Below, piece by piece: positions 121-41,680 of a DNA stretch of 51,805 nt (its first letter is position 1; every line of letters starts with the position of its first letter). The notes beneath the pieces were generated by a model. The model ran no database searches. It had not been told where the DNA came from and saw only the letters and a list, made by a program, of their open reading frames with translations. The stretch is from Acidobacteriota bacterium. GTDB lineage: Bacteria; Acidobacteriota; Terriglobia; Terriglobales; Acidobacteriaceae. The stretch is taken from the NCBI GenBank assembly GCA_021810625.1, contig JAJZIJ010000018.1, positions 1-51,805 of the forward strand, written 5' to 3'. A program made the position numbers and the translations under genes.

Positions 121-145
121 GTACAAATCGAGACCTGGGGCACCC
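121..145 (+). repeat. Half copy of the GGGGCACCC palindromic element
   Basis: The stretch CGAGACCTGGGGCACCC at 129-145 matches the right half of the elements at 10818, 25393 and 40605. The left stem arm is degenerate: GAGACTGTACAAAT stands where CCAGGTCTCAAAAT is expected. I found no partner copy in inverted orientation downstream of the three following genes, so this is an orphan. Bases 1-164 hold no other gene that I can support. Confidence 0.7.
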
Positions 146-164
146 GGTACCCGGCTGACTTTTA

Positions 165-1769
165 TTATGCGTGGCGTTCGCGGCGTTTGCGGTAGACAAC
201 GCGCACCTGATCGCGCCAGCGTTCGTCGAGCGCAATCAAAGTCCACTCCACCTGCGGCGAAAGATATTGCAGTACGATTTCTGTGGCTGGGTGAATGCGC
301 AGCGAGGGCGCGACCAGATAGAGCAGCGGCGCGTCGGGATGCAAAGTTTTGCCTGTGAAATATCCAAAGCGCTGCAACTCGGTTTGCCCGGCGGCGTCTC
401 GTTGCGCCAGATGCCAGCGCACGCGCATCCAGTAATCCAGCGCCTGGAGCGCCAGATGCAAATCCTCTTCCGCCTTTAATTCCAGCACGGCCAGTCGTCC
501 ATCGCGCCGCGCAGCCAGCAGGTCAAGCACGGCGCGGTCTGCGGCAGAAAACGCCGGCACCTGCGCGTAGACCGGTTGCGGCTCACATTGGGGATCAATG
601 CTATCGAGGGAAAAACGCAGCACGGACTCCAGCCATCGCTCCGATTGCAGGCGATAGAGCGCATCGCGCTTGTTGCCATCGGGACGACGACGATCCACAA
701 GCTGGCGCAGCAGCGCGCGCAGCGCTGGCTCGGTTTCCTCAGTCAGCGCGGTTTCGCTGGCTCCCGCGCCAAAGGTGATTTCCTCAATCCGCGCAAAACT
801 GTTCGCAGCCAGATCCGCGCGCGCGCGCGCAAACTCCAACCCATGCCAGAGAAAGCCCACCTCGCTGCCACTCCGCGCCACAACTTCCATGCGCTCACGA
901 AACGGCTCCGGCATCATCTCCCGCACGCGCCGGATCGTCGCGGCAAATCGCTCCTGCACCGCCTGGGTATTCGGCGCATGGATCAGATGCGTTTGCAGAT
1001 TGCCCTGGTCGCGGTAATCGCGCAACCATAATTCTTCTGTGCGTTCGTCAAGTTCGTAGAGTTCCCACTTGGCCGCCTTGGGGTGCATCCAAGCCAGCCG
1101 CGCTGCCGTTGTCTCGGCTGCGCCCGCAGGCACGATGAGGCGTAGCCCTTCGACGACACGCTGGCCCGCGCGCTGCGTTGGATGTTCGCGGCAGTGATGC
1201 AGCCAGAGAATGCCCAGCGTTAAAATGCCGTCGATCATGGCGGGCGACTCCTCGGCATGGACGGCAATCACGGCCCAGGCCGCTGTACCGCGCACTTGCA
1301 GCCCACGCGCATAGGCAGGGCCAAAGCTGCGCTCCAAATCCATCGCCGCGCGCAGGCCGTCCACTTTATAGTCAGGAAATTGCCGCGTCAGCACGCGCTC
1401 CAGCAGGACGAGATACTTCGTCCGCGCAGCCTCGCGTTCACTGGGCTGACGCCGGTCGCGGTCTGGCACCAGCTCCAACGTCTGCGGACGCGCCTGCCCC
1501 ATGCGCAGCACACTGATGCGCAGCACACCTTTGCGCTCGGTGATGCCCACCACGCGGCGGATCAGGTTCCGCTCCTCTGACCAGAGATGCAACACGCAGC
1601 GGCCATGCTCGGCGGCCACGGAGTATCGCGCCGAGCGAAAATCAAAGAGCAGCTTGCCATCTTCGAGCAGCGCTGCTGCGGGATGCTCAGCGAGAAAAAC
1701 AGAGATGCGCTCGGATAATTCCGACGGTGTGGGCGTTGATATTTTCTCTGTCAAGACCGGACCAATCAA
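165..1769 (-). CDS. Hypothetical protein with RecB-like PD-(D/E)XK nuclease signature near the C terminus
   Basis: A 534-residue soluble protein that I do not recognise as a named family. Near the C terminus, D416, the E430-L-K432 tripeptide on a predicted strand (LAVLELK) and a following helix with Q442-x3-Y446 form the D...ExK...QxxxY pattern of the RecB/Cas4 branch of the PD-(D/E)XK nuclease fold. This is pattern reading, not a profile hit. The N-terminal 400 residues show no motif known to me. The first usable start is a TTG at 1767-1769 with no clear Shine-Dalgarno, so the true start is uncertain; another in-frame TTG lies five codons in. The gene lies just downstream of the membrane-protein gene at 1778-2377 on the same strand and may be co-transcribed with it. 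Codon use is GC-rich like the core genes, unlike the next two genes. Confidence 0.75.
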   Translation of the reverse strand: MIGPVLTEKISTPTPSELSERISVFLAEHPAAALLEDGKLLFDFRSARYSVAAEHGRCVLHLWSEERNLIRRVVGITERKGVLRISVLRMGQARPQTLELVPDRDRRQPSEREAARTKYLVLLERVLTRQFPDYKVDGLRAAMDLERSFGPAYARGLQVRGTAAWAVIAVHAEESPAMIDGILTLGILWLHHCREHPTQRAGQRVVEGLRLIVPAGAAETTAARLAWMHPKAAKWELYELDERTEELWLRDYRDQGNLQTHLIHAPNTQAVQERFAATIRRVREMMPEPFRERMEVVARSGSEVGFLWHGLEFARARADLAANSFARIEEITFGAGASETALTEETEPALRALLRQLVDRRRPDGNKRDALYRLQSERWLESVLRFSLDSIDPQCEPQPVYAQVPAFSAADRAVLDLLAARRDGRLAVLELKAEEDLHLALQALDYWMRVRWHLAQRDAAGQTELQRFGYFTGKTLHPDAPLLYLVAPSLRIHPATEIVLQYLSPQVEWTLIALDERWRDQVRVVYRKRRERHA

Positions 1770-1777
1770 TCCGGGAT

Positions 1778-2377
1778 TTATGAGTGGGCTAGCTTAAGTT
1801 CAGAATTTCTAACATTCATTTCTAACATGTATGTTTCGTCTTCAATAGGCCGGATACTCCGAATCAGCATTTCCTGTCTATCGCGTTGCACATTCATCGG
1901 CTTTTTATGAAACAAACGTATCACCACGTAGGGAACGAACAGCAGCGCACACAGACAGGACAGCAGTACACCTGTCAATGAAGTATTGAGATGTCTCGCA
2001 AGGATAAGCTGCATCTTCCTGTGCGCATCTTGCATGAGCGCGCGTTTACCCTCAGGGAGTAATGCAATATCCTGGTTCCATACATCAAGGAAAGATTTTC
2101 GCGCGACTGGCCTTATTGCAAGCCAGCTAACGAACATCTGCGGAATTCTAAACCTATGAGCATAACGGATCGTTCCATTCATCAACATGCGCAATCGGAC
2201 GTATGCGCTGTTGGAGAATTCAATCTCTCCCTTCGCAGCAGCTAAAAAAAGATCGTCACGAACGGCAAACAGTCGTTGCCGAAGGACATCCAAACGGTAT
2301 TCGCTCCAGCAAATCAATAGATACCAGATAGCAAAGATTGCCAGAAGAAAGTGTAGTGCATTGCTAATGTTATTCAT
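1778..2377 (-). CDS. Hypothetical membrane protein, 199 aa
   Basis: Not recognised. The protein starts with a hydrophobic segment (about residues 7-24, rich in L, A, I, W) and has a second strongly hydrophobic stretch at about 134-156. The roughly 110 residues between them are charged, and the tail is basic then acidic. That suggests two membrane spans with a soluble loop. The ATG is preceded by GAGGA at a good distance, so the start is well supported. Base composition is visibly AT-richer than the tldD or tyrS regions, which hints at acquisition. Its stop lies 8 bases before the start of the nuclease-like gene. No function is proposed. Confidence 0.7.
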   Translation of the reverse strand: MNNISNALHFLLAIFAIWYLLICWSEYRLDVLRQRLFAVRDDLFLAAAKGEIEFSNSAYVRLRMLMNGTIRYAHRFRIPQMFVSWLAIRPVARKSFLDVWNQDIALLPEGKRALMQDAHRKMQLILARHLNTSLTGVLLSCLCALLFVPYVVIRLFHKKPMNVQRDRQEMLIRSIRPIEDETYMLEMNVRNSELKLAHS

Positions 2378-2463
2378 GGCAAATCCTCAGGATTGGTGTC
2401 TCCACGTTTAGTTAGACGGCTTGAAGAGCGATCAGGATCAATGATTTTTTACAACTGCTCCTT

Positions 2464-2501
2464 CATTGAGGATAACTCTTCACATTGAGGATAACTCTTC
2501 A
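2464..2501. repeat. Perfect 19-bp tandem duplication over a stop codon
   Basis: Two identical 19-bp units, CATTGAGGATAACTCTTCA, lie at 2464-2482 and 2483-2501. The duplication sits at the 3' end of the minus-strand gene at 2480-2797. It creates that gene's present TGA by shifting the frame, since 19 is not a multiple of three. Confidence 0.95.
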
Positions 2502-2797
2502 ATCTTCTTTTTGCGCAATTGGCGCTGTTGTTTTCCGTAGACAAGTGCCCCAGCGCCAAAAAAATACGCCAAAGTTTCGCTTATCTTGAAATCGCCTAAA
2601 AACTTAATGGCGATATCGGCGAAGGTATAGCGGCCCGCCAAATCGTGGATCATCCCACGCACAATCAATAGTCCAAAAACTGGCGCTGAAAATTTGATCA
2701 ATGTGCGAGCCGTCTCAAAAATCTGGTCGATCAATCGAATAAGTGTAGGCGCATACGCCTCAAAGTTTCGATTTGGCCGATCAGCGGAATGGCTCAT
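2480..2797 (-). CDS. Small hypothetical membrane protein, C terminus altered by a tandem duplication
   Basis: A 105-residue protein that I do not recognise. Hydrophobic stretches at about residues 34-48 and 72-88 suggest two membrane segments, followed by a very basic tail (KQQRQLRKKK). The ATG at 2795-2797 has only a weak ribosome site. A perfect 19-bp duplication at 2464-2501 supplies the current stop. If one unit is removed in silico, the frame reads on after SSM through KEQL to a TAA, so the ancestral protein was probably four residues longer. The low GC resembles the gene at 1778-2377, and the two may have arrived together. Function unknown. Confidence 0.6.
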   Translation of the reverse strand: MSHSADRPNRNFEAYAPTLIRLIDQIFETARTLIKFSAPVFGLLIVRGMIHDLAGRYTFADIAIKFLGDFKISETLAYFFGAGALVYGKQQRQLRKKKIEELSSM

Positions 2798-2872
2798 TTG
2801 GATACCGATGTTGAATTCCGTTGAGTATACCGCAAGATGTAGCAGGTTAATCTAAAAAATCATCTTACTGGT

Positions 2873-3409
2873 TTACCATCCCATACGCTGGCGCAGGCCG
2901 ATGATGTGCGCGGTGTGATGACGATTGTGCCAGGCGTGCAACGCGAGTCCCTGCTCCAGCGTCACCTCTCCCATGACGGGATGTTTGTAGCCGCACTGCG
3001 TCCATTGTTTTTCCTGCAAGGAACAGAGGAGCACAACCCAGCGCGTTTGCAGTGCTTCCAGTAGTTGCAGTGAGACCTCCACTGGCAGCGTGCGGGCATC
3101 TTCAAGCTGCGCCCAGGCGTGCTCATCAAAGGGCTTGATCTCGGGCCAGTCTTCGGTAAGCGCCCAGCGCGTTCGCTCGTTGGCCGCTGTATTGCTATCT
3201 GCCAGATGATGCACCACCTGCCGCGCCGTCCATCCGCCTTCGCGGTACGGCGTGTCGAGTTGCGCCTCGCTCAGACCACGCACGGCCTCGCGTACTGTCT
3301 GCGGAGAGTTTGCCAACACAATAATGGCCTCTGCGCGTTGCTGCGCGGTCATGCTCTGGGGGCGAATGAATTTCCCAACGGGGTAGCGAATATCCTCTTC
3401 CATGCACAT
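2873..3409 (-). CDS. DinB-superfamily metal-binding protein, YfiT/BstA-like putative thiol S-transferase
   Basis: The protein aligns by eye over its whole length with Bacillus subtilis YfiT/BstA (178 residues there and here). Shared blocks are YP-G near the N terminus, LDTPYREGGWTARQVVHHLADS, and a C-terminal HAWHNRHHTAHI block ending RMGW. By analogy the metal ligands are a His of the HH pair at 67-68, then H161 and H165. The family is a four-helix bundle binding one metal; BstA transfers bacillithiol to electrophiles such as fosfomycin. Whether this bacterium makes bacillithiol cannot be seen here, so the cosubstrate is open. I chose the ATG at 3407-3409. The longer reading frame would run into the divergent tldD leader and adds residues with no counterpart in the family. 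It is divergent from tldD. Confidence 0.85.
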   Translation of the reverse strand: MCMEEDIRYPVGKFIRPQSMTAQQRAEAIIVLANSPQTVREAVRGLSEAQLDTPYREGGWTARQVVHHLADSNTAANERTRWALTEDWPEIKPFDEHAWAQLEDARTLPVEVSLQLLEALQTRWVVLLCSLQEKQWTQCGYKHPVMGEVTLEQGLALHAWHNRHHTAHIIGLRQRMGW

Positions 3410-5035: not shown

Positions 5036-5141
5036 TCATTCTGAACGAGGTCGCGTGAGCGACCGAAGGGAAGAATCCAGAGAATCATGGCAGCGCATAC
5101 AAGGCGAGTACCTTCTGGATTCTTCGCTTCGCTCAGAATGA
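5036..5141. repeat. MITE-like inverted-repeat element, copy 1
   Basis: A roughly 106-bp unit begins TCATTCTGA and ends TCAGAATGA. Its arms share the GAAGAATCCAGA / TCTGGATTCTTC sequences, so it can fold into one long imperfect hairpin. Closely related copies lie at 11715-11831 and, inverted and truncated, at 40469-40538. It encodes nothing. No clear target-site duplication is visible. Confidence 0.85.
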
Positions 5142-5182: not shown

Positions 5183-5247
5183 CCCTCAGCGGCTAAAGCC
5201 GCATCTGTTTTCGACATTTACGGACGGGCTGAAGCCCGTCCCTTTCA
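5183..5247. repeat. Double-hairpin intergenic repeat, copy 1
   Basis: CCCTCA, then a small hairpin CGGCTAAAGCCG, a spacer, then a strong hairpin GGACGGGCTGAAGCCCGTCC and CTTTCA. The same order of blocks occurs at 31671-31737. It sits between tldD and pmbA, downstream of a MITE-like copy, so it could shape mRNA stability or read-through between the two subunit genes. Confidence 0.85.
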
Positions 5248-6673: not shown

Positions 6674-6716
6674 CCCCCACTCTAGCCGCAAACAACGCGG
6701 CTAGAATGGGGCACCC
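6674..6716. terminator. Hairpin with GGGGCACCC tail between convergent genes
   Basis: The stem TCTAGCCGC (6681-6689) pairs with GCGGCTAGA (6697-6705) around a 7-base loop. The pairing extends past a C-A mismatch into CCCA/TGGG, then runs into the constant GGGGCACCC tail. It lies between the convergent stops of pmbA and the VIT-type gene, a place where a bidirectional terminator is expected. There is no T-run, so termination is an inference. It is a variable-stem relative of the elements at 10818 and 51640. Confidence 0.6.
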
Positions 6717-10734: not shown

Positions 10735-10817
10735 GCGGATCAGCGTAGCCGAGCGCGTGCCGAGATACAAGCCCCTTTATGAAGCGCGTCCTGCGCATAC
10801 GGGAGGGTCTTGGTTTT

Positions 10818-10849
10818 CCCAGGTCTCAAAATCGAGACCTGGGGCACCC
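10818..10849 (+). repeat. Palindromic GGGGCACCC element, left partner of pair 1
   Basis: CCCAGGTCTC (10818-10827), loop AAAATC, GAGACCTGGG (10834-10843), then GCACCC. The stem is a perfect 10 bp. The tail points towards the HEPN-like gene. Its inverted partner is at 11654-11688 on the other side of that gene. Confidence 0.95.
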
Positions 10850-10864
10850 ATGCTAGCTGGCACA

Positions 10865-11527
10865 CTACTCAGGAATATGTTCCGATACGAATCGCCGTAC
10901 ATCTTCAATCATTTGAGATACGTCCTCATTGTTAAATTGGCTTGAATTTCCATGTGCGGCATTATTCCGTATATCTGCTAGAGCGGTAATTTGTTTCTGG
11001 ACGAGCAGATTATAGACACCCTTCTTTGCTAAATCTGCATTCATTTTGTCGAGCTTGCCGAGCGGAATCGTTTCGCGTGTGCATAGATCACGCAGGGTTG
11101 TTTCCAAGACAACGCCTGCAATCACTGCCGCAGCAACTTTATAGTTGTTGCGAAGCAACTCAGATGCCTGCTCTAGCTCAGAGTCAAAAACTTCTGCTTG
11201 AATAAGCCCACGCATCGAAGACAGATAGCCACCTTCAAAATCTTCTTTTACGGATACAAACACAGCCTTCTGCATTTTGAATATGTCGTAATTTGTCGAC
11301 ATTTTGAATGATGACTCCAGCTTCTCAAACTCTAAAATATATGAGGAGTTAGACTCACAGATTCGGTGCAGCAGGTTTTTTACTTTCACACGCCAGCCCA
11401 AAAGCATTTCTTGATCTACATAATCGTACTGACCCAAAAAGCCGTCACTCCCCCGGCGCTTAGTTTCTTCAACCCTCTGTGCCTGTTGGATCAATTCGGC
11501 AAATTGTTTTTCAAGTATTTTGTTCAT
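10865..11527 (-). CDS. HEPN/DUF4145-like protein in a repeat-bracketed cassette
   Basis: A 220-residue, mostly helical protein. The C-terminal half holds a helix E-L-L-R-N-N-Y-K-V-A-A-A-V-I-A-G-V-V-L-E-T-T-L-R and then RNNAAH at residues 187-192, an R-x4-H pattern found in HEPN-fold proteins (DUF4145-like), where it can form an RNase active site. No nucleotidyltransferase (MNT) partner or other antitoxin is adjacent, so a toxin role is only a possibility. The ATG follows AGGAAGGTG at good distance. DNA here is clearly more AT-rich than the flanking tyrS and exported-protein genes. The gene is enclosed by two inverted copies of the palindromic element, as is the gene at 25478-26266. Confidence 0.75.
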   Translation of the reverse strand: MNKILEKQFAELIQQAQRVEETKRRGSDGFLGQYDYVDQEMLLGWRVKVKNLLHRICESNSSYILEFEKLESSFKMSTNYDIFKMQKAVFVSVKEDFEGGYLSSMRGLIQAEVFDSELEQASELLRNNYKVAAAVIAGVVLETTLRDLCTRETIPLGKLDKMNADLAKKGVYNLLVQKQITALADIRNNAAHGNSSQFNNEDVSQMIEDVRRFVSEHIPE

Positions 11528-11653
11528 GAACGCACCTTCCTAAAATCTCGGCATACAGCGTATCAGCTAGAATCCCGAGTCAAGAAATTCGGGGTGGGTA
11601 GTTGGCTGCAATACATTCCTTAACTTCCTTTCACCACGTAATTTCGCTACAGC

Positions 11654-11688
11654 GGGTGCCCCAGGTCTCGATTTTCGGAGACCTGGGA
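11654..11688 (-). repeat. Palindromic GGGGCACCC element, right partner of pair 1
   Basis: GGGTGCCCC at 11654-11662 leads into the stem CCCAGGTCTC...GAGACCTGGG with an 8-base loop. It is the inverted complement of the element at 10818-10849, with the tail facing the enclosed gene. Confidence 0.93.
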
Positions 11689-11714
11689 TGCAGCACATCT
11701 CCTCCCAAAGAGCG

Positions 11715-11831
11715 TTATTCTGAACGAAGGTCGCCATAGCGACCGAAGTGAAGAATCCAGAGAATGATGGCTGCATCGACGAAGCGAGTACCTTCTGGAT
11801 TCTTCACTCCGCTACGCTTCGTTCAGAATGA
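11715..11831. repeat. MITE-like inverted-repeat element, copy 2
   Basis: Starts TTATTCTGAACGAAGGTCGC and ends GTTCAGAATGA, with the same internal order as the copy at 5036-5141: GAAGAATCCAGAGAATGATGG, then a centre containing GCATCGACGAAGCGAGTACC, then TTCTGGATTCTTC. It lies between the second palindromic element and the tyrS stop. Together these repeats fill the 330-bp gap upstream of the HEPN-like gene; no coding region is supported there. Confidence 0.88.
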
Positions 11832-11857
11832 CTCGTCGTTGTATTTGGAGATGATGT

Positions 11858-13108
11858 TTATTCGATGACGGCAATCTTTGCGCGCTTGCCGACGCGGATT
11901 TCCAGTTCCACGCGCCCGTTGCCCAGCATCCAGGAATTTTCTTTATATATCTCGCCGTTGATCTTTACCGCGCCCTGCTTGATCTTTCTCTCTGCGTCTG
12001 TCCGTGATTCCGCTAATCCGCATTCAAAGATCAGTTTCGGTACGGAAATGAATGGCACATTCCGTGTCAACTTCACACGTTCCGTATTCTCTGGCATCTC
12101 GTCGCGCTGAAATTGTTTGGCCCAGTCCGCATCGGCTTGCAGTGCGGCGGCTTTGCCGTGGAAGTCCGCAACGATGGTGCGCGCGAGGCGTTTCTTGACC
12201 TCCATCGGATGATAATTAGGATCCAAGTAACCTTTTTGGGCGGCGGCAAGTCCGATCAACTGCTGCATCCGTGCTAACTCTGTCTGGCGCTCGTCAGTCA
12301 ATAGAACCCAGTAGCGCCACATCAAATCATCGGAGATCGACATCAGCTTGCCATACATCTCCAGCGGCGGCTCCTGAATGCCAATCGCGTTGCCCAGAGA
12401 CTTGGACATCTTCTGTACGCCGTCCAGACCTTCGAGGATTGGCATGGTCAGCACAATCTGCGAAGGCTGCCCGTAATGGCGTTGCAATTCGCGGCCCACC
12501 AGCAGGTTAAATTTCTGATCCGTCCCACCCATTTCGACATCGGCATGCAAGGCCACGGAATCGTACCCCTGCGCCAGCGGATACAGCAGTTCATGCAGGC
12601 TGATGGGCTGCTCGGCATTGAAGCGCTGATGGAAATCCTCGCGCTCCAGCATCTGCGAGACGGTGTATTTGGCCGCCAGTCGAATGATGCCCTCAAAGCC
12701 CAGCTTGTCCAGCCATTCGGAGTTGTAGCGCACCTCCGTTTTTTCCGCATCGAGAATCTTAAAGACCTGCGCCTTGTAGGTCGCGGCGTTTTTGTCCAGT
12801 TCCTCGCGGGAGAGCGGCTTGCGCGTGGCGGAGCGTCCGGTGGGGTCGCCGATCAGCCCGGTAAAATCTCCGATCAAAAAGACAACGGTGTGGCCCATGT
12901 CCTGAAAATGTTTCAGCTTGCGGATGAGCACGGTATGGCCCAGATGCAGGTCAGGCGCAGTGGGATCGAAGCCCGCTTTGATACGCAGGGGCTTGCCACT
13001 GGCGCGGGATTGCTCCAGGCGCTCGCGCAGGGCGGGCAGCGGAAGTATCTCCGCCACTCCTTTTTGCAGGTAGGCGAGTTGTTCGTCAACAGGTAGGAAT
13101 GCTTGCAT
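11858..13108 (-). CDS. tyrS: Tyrosyl-tRNA synthetase
   Basis: TyrRS charges tRNA-Tyr with tyrosine in the cytosol. It is a class I synthetase with HIGH motif HLGH at residues 55-58, a canonical KMSKS at 233-237, the tyrosine-pocket regions [13 protein letters not shown] and GGTDQKFN, and a C-terminal S4-like RNA-binding domain ([15 protein letters not shown]). The intact KMSKS and about 416-residue length match the TyrZ/TyrRS-2 type more than E. coli TyrS. I chose the ATG at 13106-13108; a GTG further upstream would intrude into the divergent fabZ promoter region. Divergent from fabZ with 89 bp between starts. Confidence 0.96.
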
Positions 13109-25392: not shown

Positions 25393-25424
25393 CCCAGGTT
25401 TCAAAATCGAAACCTGGGGCACCC
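25393..25424 (+). repeat. Palindromic element with compensatory base pair, left partner of pair 2
   Basis: CCCAGGTTTC (25393-25402), loop AAAATC, GAAACCTGGG (25409-25418), then GCACCC. Relative to the other copies, one C-G pair of the stem is replaced by T-A on both arms, preserving the 10-bp stem. The tail points to the DUF5677-like gene. Confidence 0.93.
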
Positions 25425-25477
25425 GGGTTTTCTCTCTGCTACACTCTTCGTGTTTGAACAGTGCAAGGTAGGCACCG

Positions 25478-26266
25478 ATGACACATGTAAGCGATAGCGG
25501 ATCCGACGACAGCAAGAGGCCAACGGCCCTTGTCATAGAAAGAATAGAAAAACTGGCATTGAACATCATGAACTGTCAGGCTGAAGAAGAGCACGTCTGG
25601 TACAAACATCTGCTTCTCGGCATTCTCAACTCCGCGTTGCTGGACTACCGATATGTTGAGAGCGGGGTCAAGCACAAATCGGCTTATTTGGCTGCGTGGA
25701 GTTGCCGGAATTTACTCGAGTTGAATGTAATCACTGTCTATATCCTCGAATCCGCCAAAAATGCCACTGACTTTAAGAACGATTTCGTTGTTGATGTGAA
25801 GGAGTTTTACGAAGCTATTAGCAAAACGCACAAGACTGGCCATAAAAAACTGATCTCGATGTGGAAGGAAGTAAATGAGGGTATGGAAGGACCAATGAAA
25901 GAGGCGATGGAGGCTGCGCTACAACGCGAGATACAGAATGGCCCGCAGAGTCAGACTACGGATGACGAAGCAGAAGCCTACACACAAGTGATGATCGATT
26001 TTGGAATTGATCCAAAGCTTAGGCCGAAGCAGTCCCGTGACATTGCGAAACTCGTTTCTCGAAGCGAAGAGTTCCAACCCATGTTCAAGGTGTGTTCCAA
26101 GATCATGCACAGAACAGCCTTTTCAATCGCCTCAAGTGTAATGAAGGGAAGCCTTGACGCAACTCTTCCATGGTTGGAGTCAACGGCATTTATGGAATTG
26201 TTTTCCATTGGTGAACTGATCGGGGAGCACTACAAACGAAATGGAGTAGCGTCTCCAACAAACTAG
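25478..26266 (+). CDS. DUF5677-like helical protein in a repeat-bracketed cassette
   Basis: A 262-residue, mostly helical protein. A-W-S-C-R-N-L-L-E-L-N-V-I-T (R77, E81) and the later K-V-C-S-K-I-M-H-R-T (H211) resemble the paired Arg/Glu and Ser...His signatures of DUF5677-type, HEPN-like proteins; this is pattern reading and moderately sure. The middle (about 110-200) is highly charged. The ATG follows AGGTAGG. Base composition is AT-richer than neighbouring nnr and tyrA. The gene is alone between two inverted palindromic elements, in the same arrangement as the gene at 10865-11527. Function unknown. Confidence 0.7.
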   Translation: MTHVSDSGSDDSKRPTALVIERIEKLALNIMNCQAEEEHVWYKHLLLGILNSALLDYRYVESGVKHKSAYLAAWSCRNLLELNVITVYILESAKNATDFKNDFVVDVKEFYEAISKTHKTGHKKLISMWKEVNEGMEGPMKEAMEAALQREIQNGPQSQTTDDEAEAYTQVMIDFGIDPKLRPKQSRDIAKLVSRSEEFQPMFKVCSKIMHRTAFSIASSVMKGSLDATLPWLESTAFMELFSIGELIGEHYKRNGVASPTN

Positions 26267-26273
26267 AAATCCT

Positions 26274-26355
26274 GGGTGCCCCAGGTCTCGCTTTTGAGAC
26301 CTGGGATTTTCCAGCCCATAGTAGCCGCAAAGAACGCGACGCATGTAGGGCACCC
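26274..26355. repeat. Composite double-hairpin element with GGGTGCCC/GGGCACCC ends, right partner of pair 2
   Basis: GGGTGCCC (26274-26281) opens the first hairpin CCCAGGTCTC / GAGACCTGGG (26280-26305). A spacer and a second imperfect hairpin around AGCCGCAAAGAACGCG follow, closed by GGGCACCC (26348-26355). The ends are exact inverted repeats. The same composite occurs in reverse at 40552-40636. Confidence 0.88.
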
Positions 26356-31670: not shown

Positions 31671-31737
31671 CCCTCAGGGGCTAAAGCCCAAAGGGATTTT
31701 TCAGGGATACCGGACGGGCTGAAGCCCGTCCCCTTCA
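31671..31737. repeat. Double-hairpin intergenic repeat, copy 2, between trpC and trpF
   Basis: CCCTCA, GGGCTAAAGCCC, a spacer, then GGACGGGCTGAAGCCCGTCC and CTTCAA, the same layout as 5183-5247. A further stretch at about 31772-31812 (TGTCATCCCGACCAAAGGTCG onward) distantly resembles the left end of the MITE-like family. These two elements account for the gap between trpC and trpF; no gene is supported there. Confidence 0.8.
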
Positions 31738-40382: not shown

Positions 40383-40390
40383 TGCCTTTT

Positions 40391-40425
40391 CACCCTTCGC
40401 GAAAAGCGCAAAAGATGGGGCACCC
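40391..40425. repeat. Degenerate hairpin with GGGGCACCC tail
   Basis: CACCCTTCGCGAAAAGCGCA continues through AAAGATGGGG to CACCC. A small CGC/GCG stem lies inside, and the constant tail GGGGCACCC is at 40417-40425. It is a variable-stem relative of the palindromic elements, directly after dapD, and could help to end its transcript. Confidence 0.55.
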
Positions 40426-40468
40426 GCACCCGGCGGCTGACTTGTTCTGAGATTCCGTAGACAATGCG

Positions 40469-40538
40469 TCATTCTGAGCGAAGCGAAGAATCCAGAAGGT
40501 CTTCGCTTCGTCGATGCAGCCAGTATTCTCTGGGTTCC
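40469..40538 (-). repeat. MITE-like element, copy 3, inverted and truncated
   Basis: Reading the minus strand gives the right two thirds of the element at 11715-11831: CCAGAGAATACTGGCTGCAT, CGACGAAGCGAAGACC, TTCTGGATTCTTCGCTTCGC and TCAGAATGA. The other end is missing. Frames translated across it on the plus strand are spurious. Confidence 0.8.
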
Positions 40539-40551
40539 CATCTGACTTGCC

Positions 40552-40636
40552 GGGTATCCCTACATGCGCCGCGTTCTTTGCGGCTCATGTGGGATTTTGT
40601 AATTCCCAGGTCTCAAAATCGAGACCTGGGGCACCC
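40552..40636. repeat. Composite double-hairpin element, left partner of pair 3
   Basis: The reverse complement matches the composite at 26274-26355 over its length: GGGGCACCC at 40628-40636, stem CCCAGGTCTC/GAGACCTGGG (40605-40630), then the CATGAGCCGCAAAGAACGCG hairpin and an outer end GGGTATCCC, which is one base away from GGGTGCCC. The GCACCC tail faces the VOC and HxlR genes. Confidence 0.88.
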
Positions 40637-40658
40637 CGGCGGAATGTAGAGATGCGTT

Positions 40659-41087
40659 TTACGGCATCGGACGTTCGTGGATAATCATCCAGGATGTGCC
40701 GAACTTGTCCCGCAACATGCTGAAGCGATGAGCAAAAAATGTCTCATGCATGGGCATGAAGATTTCGCCACCGTCGGAGAGTAGCGCGTGAAGACGCTCT
40801 GCTTCCTGCGTGCTGGAAACGCTGAGCGAAAGATAGACGCTGCGCATGGGCTGAAAGCGATCCGATGGATAATCGCTGGCCATCAGCACTGTACCGCCGA
40901 TCTCCATGTGCGCGTGCAGAATGGCATCCTTCCAGTCCGGCGAAAAATTACTCGCCGGAATCTTTTCCGGTTCGGGGTGCTGGCTGAACGGCATCATCAT
41001 GGTGATCTTGCCGCCGAGATGCTTTTCGTAAAACTCGAAGGCGGCTTTGCAGTTGCCGCCGTAGTTGAGATAAGCGCGAAGTTTCAT
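40659..41087 (-). CDS. VOC-superfamily protein, PhnB/YjdN-like
   Basis: A 142-residue vicinal-oxygen-chelate fold protein of the PhnB-like group. It begins M-K-L-R-A-Y-L-N-Y-G-G-N-C-K-A-A-F-E-F-Y, followed by A-I-L-H-A-H-M-E-I-G-G-T-V-L-M-A-S-D and near the end F-A-H-R-F-S-M-L-R-D-K-F-G-T-S-W-M-I. No substrate can be assigned. The ATG overlaps the stop of the HxlR-type regulator gene by three bases (ATGA), so the regulator and this protein are translated together and likely form one stress-response unit. Confidence 0.9.
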   Translation of the reverse strand: MKLRAYLNYGGNCKAAFEFYEKHLGGKITMMMPFSQHPEPEKIPASNFSPDWKDAILHAHMEIGGTVLMASDYPSDRFQPMRSVYLSLSVSSTQEAERLHALLSDGGEIFMPMHETFFAHRFSMLRDKFGTSWMIIHERPMP

Positions 41088-41578
41088 GGTTTCTTTCTTC
41101 CTTTCCTGGGTTTGACTTTAGGGTTGAGTGGCGCGGTGAAGTGTGGAATGAGAGGCGTAGGATCACGCTGCTCCCAGCGGCGATAGGTCTCCGCTAGAAT
41201 GGCTTCGCGGTTCTGCTCCATCTGCGCGATCAAGGAGCAAGGCGCAGCCGTGTCTTCGTGATGCGCAGCCCAGATCAGCAGATCCAGCAGAACGGGAGCC
41301 AGAGCAATGCCCTTCGCTGTCAGGCGATAGTGAGTGCTGCGACCATCCCCGGCAACCGGCTCGGCAGTGAGCATCCCGACAGCTTCAAGCTTGTGGAGGC
41401 GATCCGCGAGGATGTTGGTGGCAATCCCCTCGCCAGAGTGTAGGAAGTCATGAAACGTGCGGTAGCCGCGCACCATCATGTCGCGGATGATGAGCAGCGA
41501 CCAGCGGTCGCCAAAGATATCCAGCGAGACACTGACCGGACAACCGGAACGACGCTTCAGATTGGATTTTTTCTCCAC
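41084..41578 (-). CDS. HxlR-family winged-helix regulator
   Basis: A MarR-like winged-helix regulator of the HxlR type. It has C-P-V-S-V-S-L-D-I-F-G-D-R-W-S-L-L-I-I-R-D, F-L-H-S-G-E-G-I-A-T-N-I-L-A-D-R-L, L-E-A-V-G-M-L and R-S-T-H-Y-R-L-T-A-K-G. C13 near the start of helix 1 is at the place of the redox-sensing cysteine in several HxlR members. A basic, Pro-rich tail ends the protein. It starts at GTG 41576-41578. A perfect 15-bp inverted repeat lies 11-47 bases upstream, very likely its own operator. It is the first gene of a two-gene unit with the VOC protein. Confidence 0.92.
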   Translation of the reverse strand: MEKKSNLKRRSGCPVSVSLDIFGDRWSLLIIRDMMVRGYRTFHDFLHSGEGIATNILADRLHKLEAVGMLTAEPVAGDGRSTHYRLTAKGIALAPVLLDLLIWAAHHEDTAAPCSLIAQMEQNREAILAETYRRWEQRDPTPLIPHFTAPLNPKVKPRKGRKKP

Positions 41579-41588
41579 GAGAGGACTT

Positions 41589-41625
41589 TACATAAATTAC
41601 TTGCAATTTACAAGTAATTTATGTA
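41589..41625. promoter_or_regulatory. Perfect inverted repeat, likely HxlR operator
   Basis: TACATAAATTACTTG (41589-41603) and CAAGTAATTTATGTA (41611-41625) are perfect reverse complements around a 7-base AT-rich centre. The core ACTTG-n7-CAAGT is of the kind bound by MarR/HxlR dimers. It sits just before the regulator's GTG start and would overlap its promoter, fitting autorepression. It is too AT-rich and too far from the next stop to be a typical terminator. Confidence 0.78.
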
Positions 41626-41648
41626 TGCCGTGGATATTACCTCTCGCC

Positions 41649-41680
41649 GGGTGCCCCAAGTCTCGATTTTGAGACCTGGG
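41649..41680 (-). repeat. Palindromic GGGGCACCC element, right partner of pair 3
   Basis: GGGTGCCCC (41649-41657), then stem CCCAAGTCTC with GAGACCTGGG (41671-41680), one A-C mismatch. It is inverted relative to the element at 40552-40636, with its tail facing the HxlR/VOC cassette. It lies 8 bases from the stop of the ThyX-like gene. Confidence 0.9.

Follow-up and report, generated by a model that had tools for sequence, protein, structure and literature searches.

A probable REPIN-like doublet of two different GGGTGCC-tagged hairpins in a soil Acidobacterium

Two sites within a 51,805-nucleotide stretch of DNA from a soil Acidobacterium (hereafter, the window) carry the same composite of two hairpins, which raises the question of what kind of element this composite is and how it came to be repeated. 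The window is contig C70 of a 74-contig genome of 2.45 Mb that is 99% complete (G000); it was compared with a genome of the same genus (G001), with one of another genus (G016) and with further members of the family. A first-pass annotation had described an 82-bp element with inverted 8-bp ends and a second, inverted copy, and had suggested either a doublet of repetitive extragenic palindromes (REPs) of the REPIN type or a small miniature inverted-repeat transposable element (MITE). REPINs are reportedly due to Bertels and Rainey in 2011. The composite is, in our judgement, probably a heterotypic and partly decayed REPIN-like doublet belonging to a class of REPs tagged with GGGTGCC. Each half is a REP in which a constant 5' GGGTGCC tag stands beside a hairpin whose stem varies among five classes (A to E, labels coined in this analysis), and the unit consists of two such REPs in inverted orientation with the tags outward. 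Systems of REPs or REPINs with a REP-associated tyrosine transposase (RAYT) are known in kind; the shared GGGTGCC tag and the two different hairpins per unit are unusual. The features computed here are the tag-hairpin anatomy, the paired changes in stem A, the repetition, the tagged hairpins that flank RAYT genes, and signs that sister doublets have dispersed.

Anatomy and recurrence of the composite

The coordinates of both copies and of the other REPs in the window are listed in Table 1. In copy 1, the ends GGGTGCCC and GGGCACCC are complementary at 8 of 8 positions, and hairpin A has a perfect 10-bp stem, CCCAGGTCTC/GAGACCTGGG, closed by a 6-nt loop and followed by a spacer and by AGCCGCAAAGAACGCG. 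Since the second hairpin is weak here, the predicted fold of the single-stranded DNA (z -3.15 and -2.81) rests on the ends and hairpin A. Copy 2, read on the minus strand, keeps the order of copy 1 with the A stem and B core exact, and has two strong hairpins (z -7.75 and -7.65). At the far end GGGATACCC stands in place of GGGCACCC, so that inverted 8-bp ends, which had been claimed for both sites, are true of copy 1 only. The described 82-bp unit therefore stands for copy 1 and, with a degraded far end, for its inverted counterpart; the order of hairpin, spacer and second hairpin is likewise kept at both, the second hairpin being weak in copy 1. Both copies thus comprise two closely spaced inverted REP units, each copy with one decayed half, and both are extragenic, lying between open reading frames (ORFs) with family matches.

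Table 1. Coordinates and strands of composites, REP units and bracketed genes (window positions unless a contig or locus is named)
Feature	Position	Strand
Composite copy 1, made up of tagged hairpin A, a spacer, hairpin B (decayed) and a second, inverted tag	26274..26355	+
REP-A unit of copy 1: GGGTGCC tag and CCCAGGTCTC/GAGACCTGGG hairpin	26274..26305	+
REP-B core AGCCGCAAAGAACGCG of copy 1, stem weak there	26323..26338	+
Composite copy 2, made up of A, the spacer GGGAATTACA.. and a strong hairpin B, with GGGATACCC for the decayed far tag	40552..40636	-
REP-A unit of copy 2	40605..40636	-
REP-B core of copy 2	40570..40585	-
Single REP-A, left side of bracket 10849-/11654+	10818..10849	-
Single REP-A, longer loop, right side of bracket 10849-/11654+	11654..11687	+
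Single REP-A, compensated stem change GGTTTC/GAAACC, left side of bracket ending at copy 1	25393..25424	-
Single REP-A, right side of bracket starting at copy 2	41649..41680	+
Part of REP-A flanking the C71 RAYT (join inferred), severed by insertion sequence ending at 101-125	126..145	-
Single REP-B AGCCGCAAACAACGCG, conserved at orthologous G001 place L201:2581	6675..6716	-
Degenerate D-type REP GGGTGCCCCATCTTTTGCG...	40391..40425	-
REP-A loops broken by apparent insertion-sequence ends	101-145; L001:1963-2007; C20:145; C34:81645; C40:125; C40:76809	
Gene inside copy-1 bracket; interior GC 0.469; DUF5677 match below Pfam cut-off	25478..26266	+
Gene inside bracket 10849-/11654+; interior GC 0.437	10865..11527	-
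Glyoxalase-like gene and HxlR regulator gene inside copy-2 bracket; interior GC 0.549	40659..41578	-

Across the 2.45-Mb genome, hairpin A with its tag occurs at 28 sites (up to 3 mismatches), the B core at 18 (up to 1 mismatch), and the exact-ended pattern GGGTGCCC-N50..80-GGGCACCC at two, namely copy 1 and C53:20972. As the controls (a backwards pattern in the case of hairpin A) gave 0 in each search, the repetition goes beyond chance. Units were listed by GGGTGCCCCA (up to 1 mismatch) in 189 kb of the genome including the window, a non-random sample taken mostly around search matches. Some matches have no hairpin, for example coding repeats of C11; the remaining units follow one rule, the tag and then a hairpin that starts with CCC and finishes with GGG, and their stems fall into class A (GGTCTC/GAGACC with paired variants), B (CCTAGCCGC/GCGGCTAGG), C (TTCAAGCC/GGCTTGA), D (CCTTCGCG/CGCGAAGG) and E (CCTTGGCG). 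Under a stricter rule, applied to the 189 kb and five whole contigs, there are 54 units: 23 of class A, 16 of class C (one of which, at window 6716, is in fact B-like), 7 of class B, 7 of class D or E, and 1 other.

The tag is common to units of all five classes and does not match the published GTAG/GTGG tag. Directly before the palindrome stands GGGTGCC and no GT[A/G]G tetranucleotide, for which reason the composite is termed REPIN-like and is not placed in the GTAG class. Nor does it carry at one end the GTAG or CGTC tag of the REP superfamilies of that name (PMC3733652).

In class A, changes on both sides preserve the pairing of the stem. Among 25 variants, hand-chosen from listings whose near-match pattern may favour some forms, 98.8% of cells are paired and both sides are changed in 5 of 10 pairs, values matched by 0 of 500 shuffles in each case; further pair types were matched by 3 of 500. 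These paired changes are compatible with selection on the hairpin or with its copying. Selection is the basis of a different account, by which the hairpins are mainly transcription terminators or mRNA stabilisers at gene ends, retained whatever their origin. Besides the preserved pairing, this fits the location of the units near stops (copy 1 begins 8 bp after the end of an ORF, and position 41680 precedes by 8 bp the stop end of an ORF on the minus strand) and the retention of A/C and E/D doublets at orthologous places in G001. The bases that follow the hairpins vary between copies, however, with no regular T run. Around copy 1 five terminator-like matches were found (1.3 expected): two span the left tag, one spans the right tag together with B, two lie elsewhere and none is on stem A. 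In the window, no match to an Rfam family attains the gathering score. An RNA family was rejected on the latter ground, and a terminator as the main identity on account of the irregular following bases and of the 0 of 5 predicted terminators on stem A. Maintenance by such a function is an unlikely but serious account; a terminator role is also compatible with a RAYT origin and does not exclude it.

The combination of hairpins recurs as well. In addition to the window copies, the A/B layout is found at C24:11573 and C40:26363 and, more diverged, in G001 on C129, and an A/C layout at C53, C36 and C40:24652. Copy 1 and C24:11573 have in common the arrangement A-GGGATTTTC..CCCATAGTA[AG]CCGCAAAGAACGC, and the start A-GGGAATTACA.. 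is common to copy 2 and C40:26363 and occurs with stem C at C53. Among pairs within 250 bp, 8 are outward, 2 tandem and 0 inward in the searched sequence of the own genome; the figures are 2 outward and 1 inward in G001, and 20 outward, 29 tandem and 6 inward in 100 loci of other genera. By a strict scan, outward pairs whose stems differ at 3 or more of 8 positions make up 3 of 8 in the own genome, 0 of 2 in G001 and, for the other genera, 5 of 20, and by that measure mixed doublets are a minority. A chance neighbourhood of two extragenic palindromes with no relation to each other would account for stems A and B being different and mostly single, and for the failure of both composites in a strict doublet scan; the recurring layouts and the outward orientation in the own genome argue against this, and we regard it as improbable. 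The window composite, partly decayed, belongs to a small group of mixed doublets. Further composites thus exist, and the suggestion that the single palindromes represent one half of the composite is borne out, the single units being the same tagged REPs standing alone. Doublets of 120-122 bp in which A-like stems are identical or differ at 1 of 8 compared positions were noted in another genome of the family, G163 (L493, L494, L496, L498, L499 and L295); these are like a homotypic REPIN population.

RAYT genes and their flanking hairpins

The PF01797 profile identifies two RAYT genes in the own genome, on C71 and C50, both over the cut-off; both also exceed the cut-off of 80 for NCBIfam NF047646 (REP_Tyr_transpos), with 92.6 and 104.5 bits. 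The RAYT of C71 has 164 aa. A REP-A on the plus strand lies 47 bp upstream, and on the other side is a REP-A on the minus strand that is split by an insertion sequence; in both the tag faces outward. At the split, the C71 part reads ..CAAAATCGAG up to the junction and TGTACAG.. beyond it, and the window part reads ..CTGTACA and then AATCGAGACCTGGGGCACCC. The heptamer AATCGAG is common to the two parts, as fits a 7-bp duplication, and a copy of the same insertion sequence end on C20 carries AAACGAG instead, from which we infer that C71 joins the left end of the window. A RAYT gene flanked by the same REP is therefore present at C71, with one of the two REPs split. These two RAYT genes, the flanking of one by REP-A and the existence of further composites support the REPIN-like alternative of the first-pass annotation.

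Similar arrangements occur in relatives. RAYTs lie between type-A or near-A REPs in G142 and G163, and in Acidicapsa dinghuensis (L372) a RAYT that is 66% identical is placed between REPs at 1703+ and 2278-. Among 30 RAYT loci of the family, which are the best matches to the C71 RAYT and so say nothing of distant RAYTs, a GGGTGCC-tagged hairpin is found within 250 bp in 22 and on both sides in 15; random 495-bp stretches of the own genome had one on at least one side in 7 of 600 cases and on both sides in 0 of 600. The stems beside these RAYTs include A, ACGTCTC, ACATCTC, CCGGTCCC, GTCCTAGC, ACCCGAGCC, AGGTTCGCG and others, with GGGTGCC constant. RAYT matches at 1e-20 are present in 107 of 150 family genomes. 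Of the 19 genomes that match the RAYT best, 13 carry REP-A, versus 17 of the 131 others, by a hand count whose rank cut was chosen after the listings had been seen.

REP-A is patchily distributed over the family, in 30 of 150 genomes and 17 of 79 genera (controls 0). Elsewhere, exact REP-A matched at least 110 stretches, and 78 of 80 listed loci belong to records named as Acidobacteria, including Terracidiphilus gabretensis, Occallatibacter savannae and Acidicapsa dinghuensis; the other two are metagenome contigs labelled Formivibrio and Syntrophobacteraceae, which may be misbinned. Carriage of REP-A by phage was rejected, with 0 exact matches among viral contigs, as was carriage of the RAYT by plasmids, with 13 plasmid records each below 60% identity.

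The association with RAYTs also bears on the MITE suggestion, according to which the composite would be a non-autonomous DNA transposon with 8-bp inverted ends cut by a DDE transposase. Small size and further copies would suit a MITE, as would the perfect terminal inverted repeats of 8 bp, present in copy 1 alone. These ends are, however, the tags of two REP units and are carried equally by single REPs and by those that flank RAYTs, which leaves the terminal-repeat reading unsupported. By eye, no target-site duplication was seen around either window copy or around the doublets of C43, C69 and C54. A classical MITE was set aside on these two grounds and is highly improbable.

A mechanism for the REPIN-like doublet can be proposed from the protein family. 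The RAYT would act as an HUH/Y1 single-strand nuclease, a relative of IS200/IS605 transposases, binding the REP hairpin when this is single-stranded, for example at a replication fork, and presumably cutting beside the tag; the doublet might then be copied via single strands to new extragenic sites. Stem B may be recognised by the same or a former RAYT. Given a tag common to the classes, units of different stems could join in one doublet, as in the bacterial interspersed mosaic elements (BIMEs) of E. coli. There, the yafM RAYT is bounded by two different REPs, Y and Z2, which are also joined in BIMEs (Nunvar 2010, PMC2817692), so that mixed-stem doublets are already known; E. coli BIMEs differ in having a GTAG tag and tandem arrays, whereas here there are single doublets with quite different stems.

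With published REPIN/REP-RAYT systems the present one shares a RAYT flanked by the same REP, extragenic location and REP classes that differ among related genomes, and it differs in its tag (GGGTGCC versus GTAG/GTGG) and in composite halves of different stem classes (Nunvar 2013, PMC3686654). In the IS200/IS605 TnpA (HUH/Y1) proteins, the likeness lies in the protein family (PF01797 over cut-off) and in subterminal hairpins with a guide tetranucleotide; the difference is that our proteins score better as REP_Tyr_transpos and that the hairpins flanking them are mutually inverted. In the acidobacterial TIRYTs/TIRtrons, inverted repeats flank tyrosine transposases of Terriglobus, Koribacter, Acidobacterium and Granulicella, and some of these repeats form families, dimers or clusters (Di Nocera 2013, PMC3733652); by the shared motif stated there, GGGGWSAS, they differ from GGGTGCC. 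The Class 3 TnpA-Y1 proteins (PMC6006769) are by description a near system. A GGGTGCC-tagged REP class was not found in the published literature searched, in its text as distinct from figures and supplements, and as a sequence the tag is distinct from the published GTAG/GTGG tags. If the proposed reading is true, there is in the Acidobacteriaceae a REP/RAYT class in which a tag of its own stays constant and the stems change freely. For three RAYTs the tag has been assigned a role in recognition or in the choice of cleavage site (PMC8266576), and a naturally different tag would offer a direct test of that role. The mixed-stem doublets pose the question of whether one RAYT tolerates several stems or several RAYTs are involved.

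Signs of movement in sister doublets

Signs of mobility come from sister doublets. The D/E doublets at C43:409-538 and C69:827-956 are nearly identical from tag to tag, including the spacer, and their flanks are unrelated. At the place orthologous to the D/D doublet at C54:17182-17313, G001 (on C144) is empty, with the GGATTCTTCGCTGCGCTCAGAATGA repeat uninterrupted there, and the same doublet is found elsewhere in G001, on C128. These two cases, and not the window composite, indicate by sequence comparison that a doublet may move as a unit. The doublets at C40:24652 and C62 are at the same places in G000 and G001. Of ten own-genome sites compared with G001, C29 has its flanks on two contigs, C43 and C53 gave one-sided matches, C36 and C60 were unmatched, and C24 was matched through repeats alone.

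Homologous recombination between repeats, or gene conversion, might also have spread these doublets, with no present RAYT activity. At C54, about 60 bp of the left repeat flank are shared with the G001 copy, which makes repeat recombination an alternative carrier; DNA that includes the 3' end of a tRNA synthetase gene has been replaced between G000 and G001; and G001 keeps REPs without a RAYT match. Recombination is less readily reconciled with the agreement of the C43 and C69 copies from tag to tag within unrelated flanks, or with the right flank of the C54 doublet, which runs on into the empty site's own sequence. Spread in this way is rather unlikely, in our estimate. In this replaced stretch, at window 11858-12107 versus L201:6894-7263, a class I (W/Y) tRNA synthetase gene does not align at its 3' end, nor does the DNA around that end, and the sequence on both sides aligns at about 90%.

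Several observations weigh against a mobile REPIN-like doublet and are gathered here. One half is decayed in each window composite and, as mentioned, neither passes the strict doublet scan. In 80 named REP-A loci, pairs within 250 bp are tandem in 18 cases, outward in 2 and inward in 0, so that outward doublets are not a general rule. The second RAYT of the own genome has no GGGTGCCCCA unit (up to 1 mismatch) in its 3.3-kb locus (L002), and no RAYT of this genome was seen flanked by B, C, D or E stems. No tagged hairpin was found at 8 of the 30 RAYT loci, although G112, G146 and G126 among these were positive under a looser scan, and G001 carries REP-A with no RAYT match at 1e-20. To these may be added the left repeat flank shared at C54. 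For copy 1, there is no pair of occupied and empty sites, the G001 contig ending 12 bp past the composite; in G016, which belongs to another genus, the YjeF-type and prephenate dehydrogenase genes are adjacent and the whole block 25393-26355 is missing. Of the mobility signature and empty sites foreseen in the first-pass annotation, the evidence is accordingly indirect and comes from the sister doublets, with the empty C54 site in G001.

Inward brackets, enclosed genes and neighbouring repeats

Three pairs of REPs with inward tags bracket genes in the window: 25424-/26274+, 40636-/41649+ and 10849-/11654+. The last consists of two single REPs, and the other two, which surround accessory genes, have a composite as one side, as had been noted for both copies. 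The gene in the first stops 8 bp before the REP tag. That in 10849-/11654+ matches DUF4145 just above the cut-off (23.4 versus 23.1 bits) and RiboL-PSP-HEPN below it; the HEPN, DUF4145 and DUF5677 matches in the window are weak. Neither the DUF5677 nor the DUF4145 gene has an NCBIfam family, and PADLOC gave weak matches for one window bracket gene and none for the other. In G001, inward pairs enclose a protein with RuvB_N/AAA and Mrr_cat domains (L134), with type IV restriction-like matches in PADLOC, and a 268-aa gene with a sub-threshold Pfam match only (L206); the neighbour of a single REP (L204) has OLD/GajA-like matches. The bracket genes of C22, C34 and L271 have no Pfam or PADLOC match. 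Both 10790-12107 and 40388-41645 of the window correspond to different DNA in G001 and not to clean empty sites. At the latter (L200:1623-4583), G001 has 2.96 kb with an mnmG-like gene, named from its translation, left of a shared REP-A and in place of the glyoxalase/HxlR pair; a diverged unit (L200:4589) stands at the place orthologous to 41649..41680.

Inward brackets appeared AT-rich in a first set of pairs (400-2000 bp, any stem class). The mean GC difference of 13 inward pairs was -0.086, negative in 11 of 13, against means of 0.016 and 0.002 for 29 same-orientation pairs (p = 0.00012); the comparison with 8 outward pairs gave p = 0.025, and the 5 inward pairs outside the own genome p = 0.029. 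The bracket idea had arisen from pairs seen in the own genome and G001, and this set is thus not independent. It excluded pairs with less than 500 bp of outside sequence, the pair C34:80970/81645 split by an insertion sequence and the too-degenerate pair of G001:C116, the latter two both AT-rich. In a fresh test, with the hypothesis written beforehand, 40 loci were taken from G163, G086, G107, G167, G090 and G164; other loci from two of the six had already been in the first set, one region was chosen for a visible inward pair, and the set was inspected once midway (20 loci, 1 inward pair, +0.017). The effect was not replicated: 4 inward pairs (-0.081, +0.017, +0.028 and +0.094) versus 12 same-orientation pairs gave p = 0.52. 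In hindsight, the sole inward pair of the fresh set in which both stems are A is AT-rich. Low-GC stretches are common, with 33 in six own contigs, of which 4 are within inward brackets; window 1556-3095 is likewise AT-rich (minimum GC 0.428) and has no REP bracket. A general directional GC bias around REP-A was rejected, since comparison of tag side with hairpin side gave p of 0.29, 0.19, 0.08 and 0.06 (200, 400, 600 and 800 bp) in the own genome and of 0.29 to 0.96 in relatives.

In integrons, attC sites and the integrase serve gene cassettes. By loose analogy, REPs with inward tags might border single-gene cassettes in this genus, the single-stranded REP hairpins and the RAYT acting as a recombination site, but we hold this to be quite improbable. 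The cassettes would be AT-rich accessory genes, from a few to about 130 bp from the tags, gained and lost between close species, a part of the proposal to which we likewise give little credence; some of the enclosed genes have defence-like domains (AAA/RuvB_N with an Mrr nuclease, possibly HEPN). With the AT-richness lost in the fresh set, the cassette mechanism is unproven. The AT-rich inward brackets are a feature observed in this genus and may offer a lead to the way in which accessory genes settle, no more.

Other repeats and apparent insertion sequences were also noted. At least three different insertion sequences, to judge by what look like their ends (TGTACAGTCTC.., TGTCAAGTCCC.. and TGGGTATAAATAC..; Table 1), break REP-A loops, as if the loop were a target for them. 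A second interspersed repeat, TCATTCTGAGCGAAGCGAAGAATC, adjoins several REPs (window 5118-5141, 11753-11813 and 40469-40492), and the C54 doublet is placed within a copy of it. A 27-bp palindromic repeat with GGACGGGCTGAAGCCCGTCC occurs in near-identical form at window 5221-5247 and 31711-31737. At C1:44034, C21:117, C29:26368, C37:115 and C69:827, a REP that has A as the first base of its tag is preceded by the ten bases GAAAGATCAC. Some of these sites are about 115 bp away from the end of a contig, so that the tag seems to be abutted by another repeat, and the upstream ORF at C29 was judged from reading to be no transposase. Type-A stems are interrupted by a CCTGCCCTGAGCTTGTCGAAGG-like repeat, one repeat inside another, at C11:104698, C21:219 and C32 near 24440.
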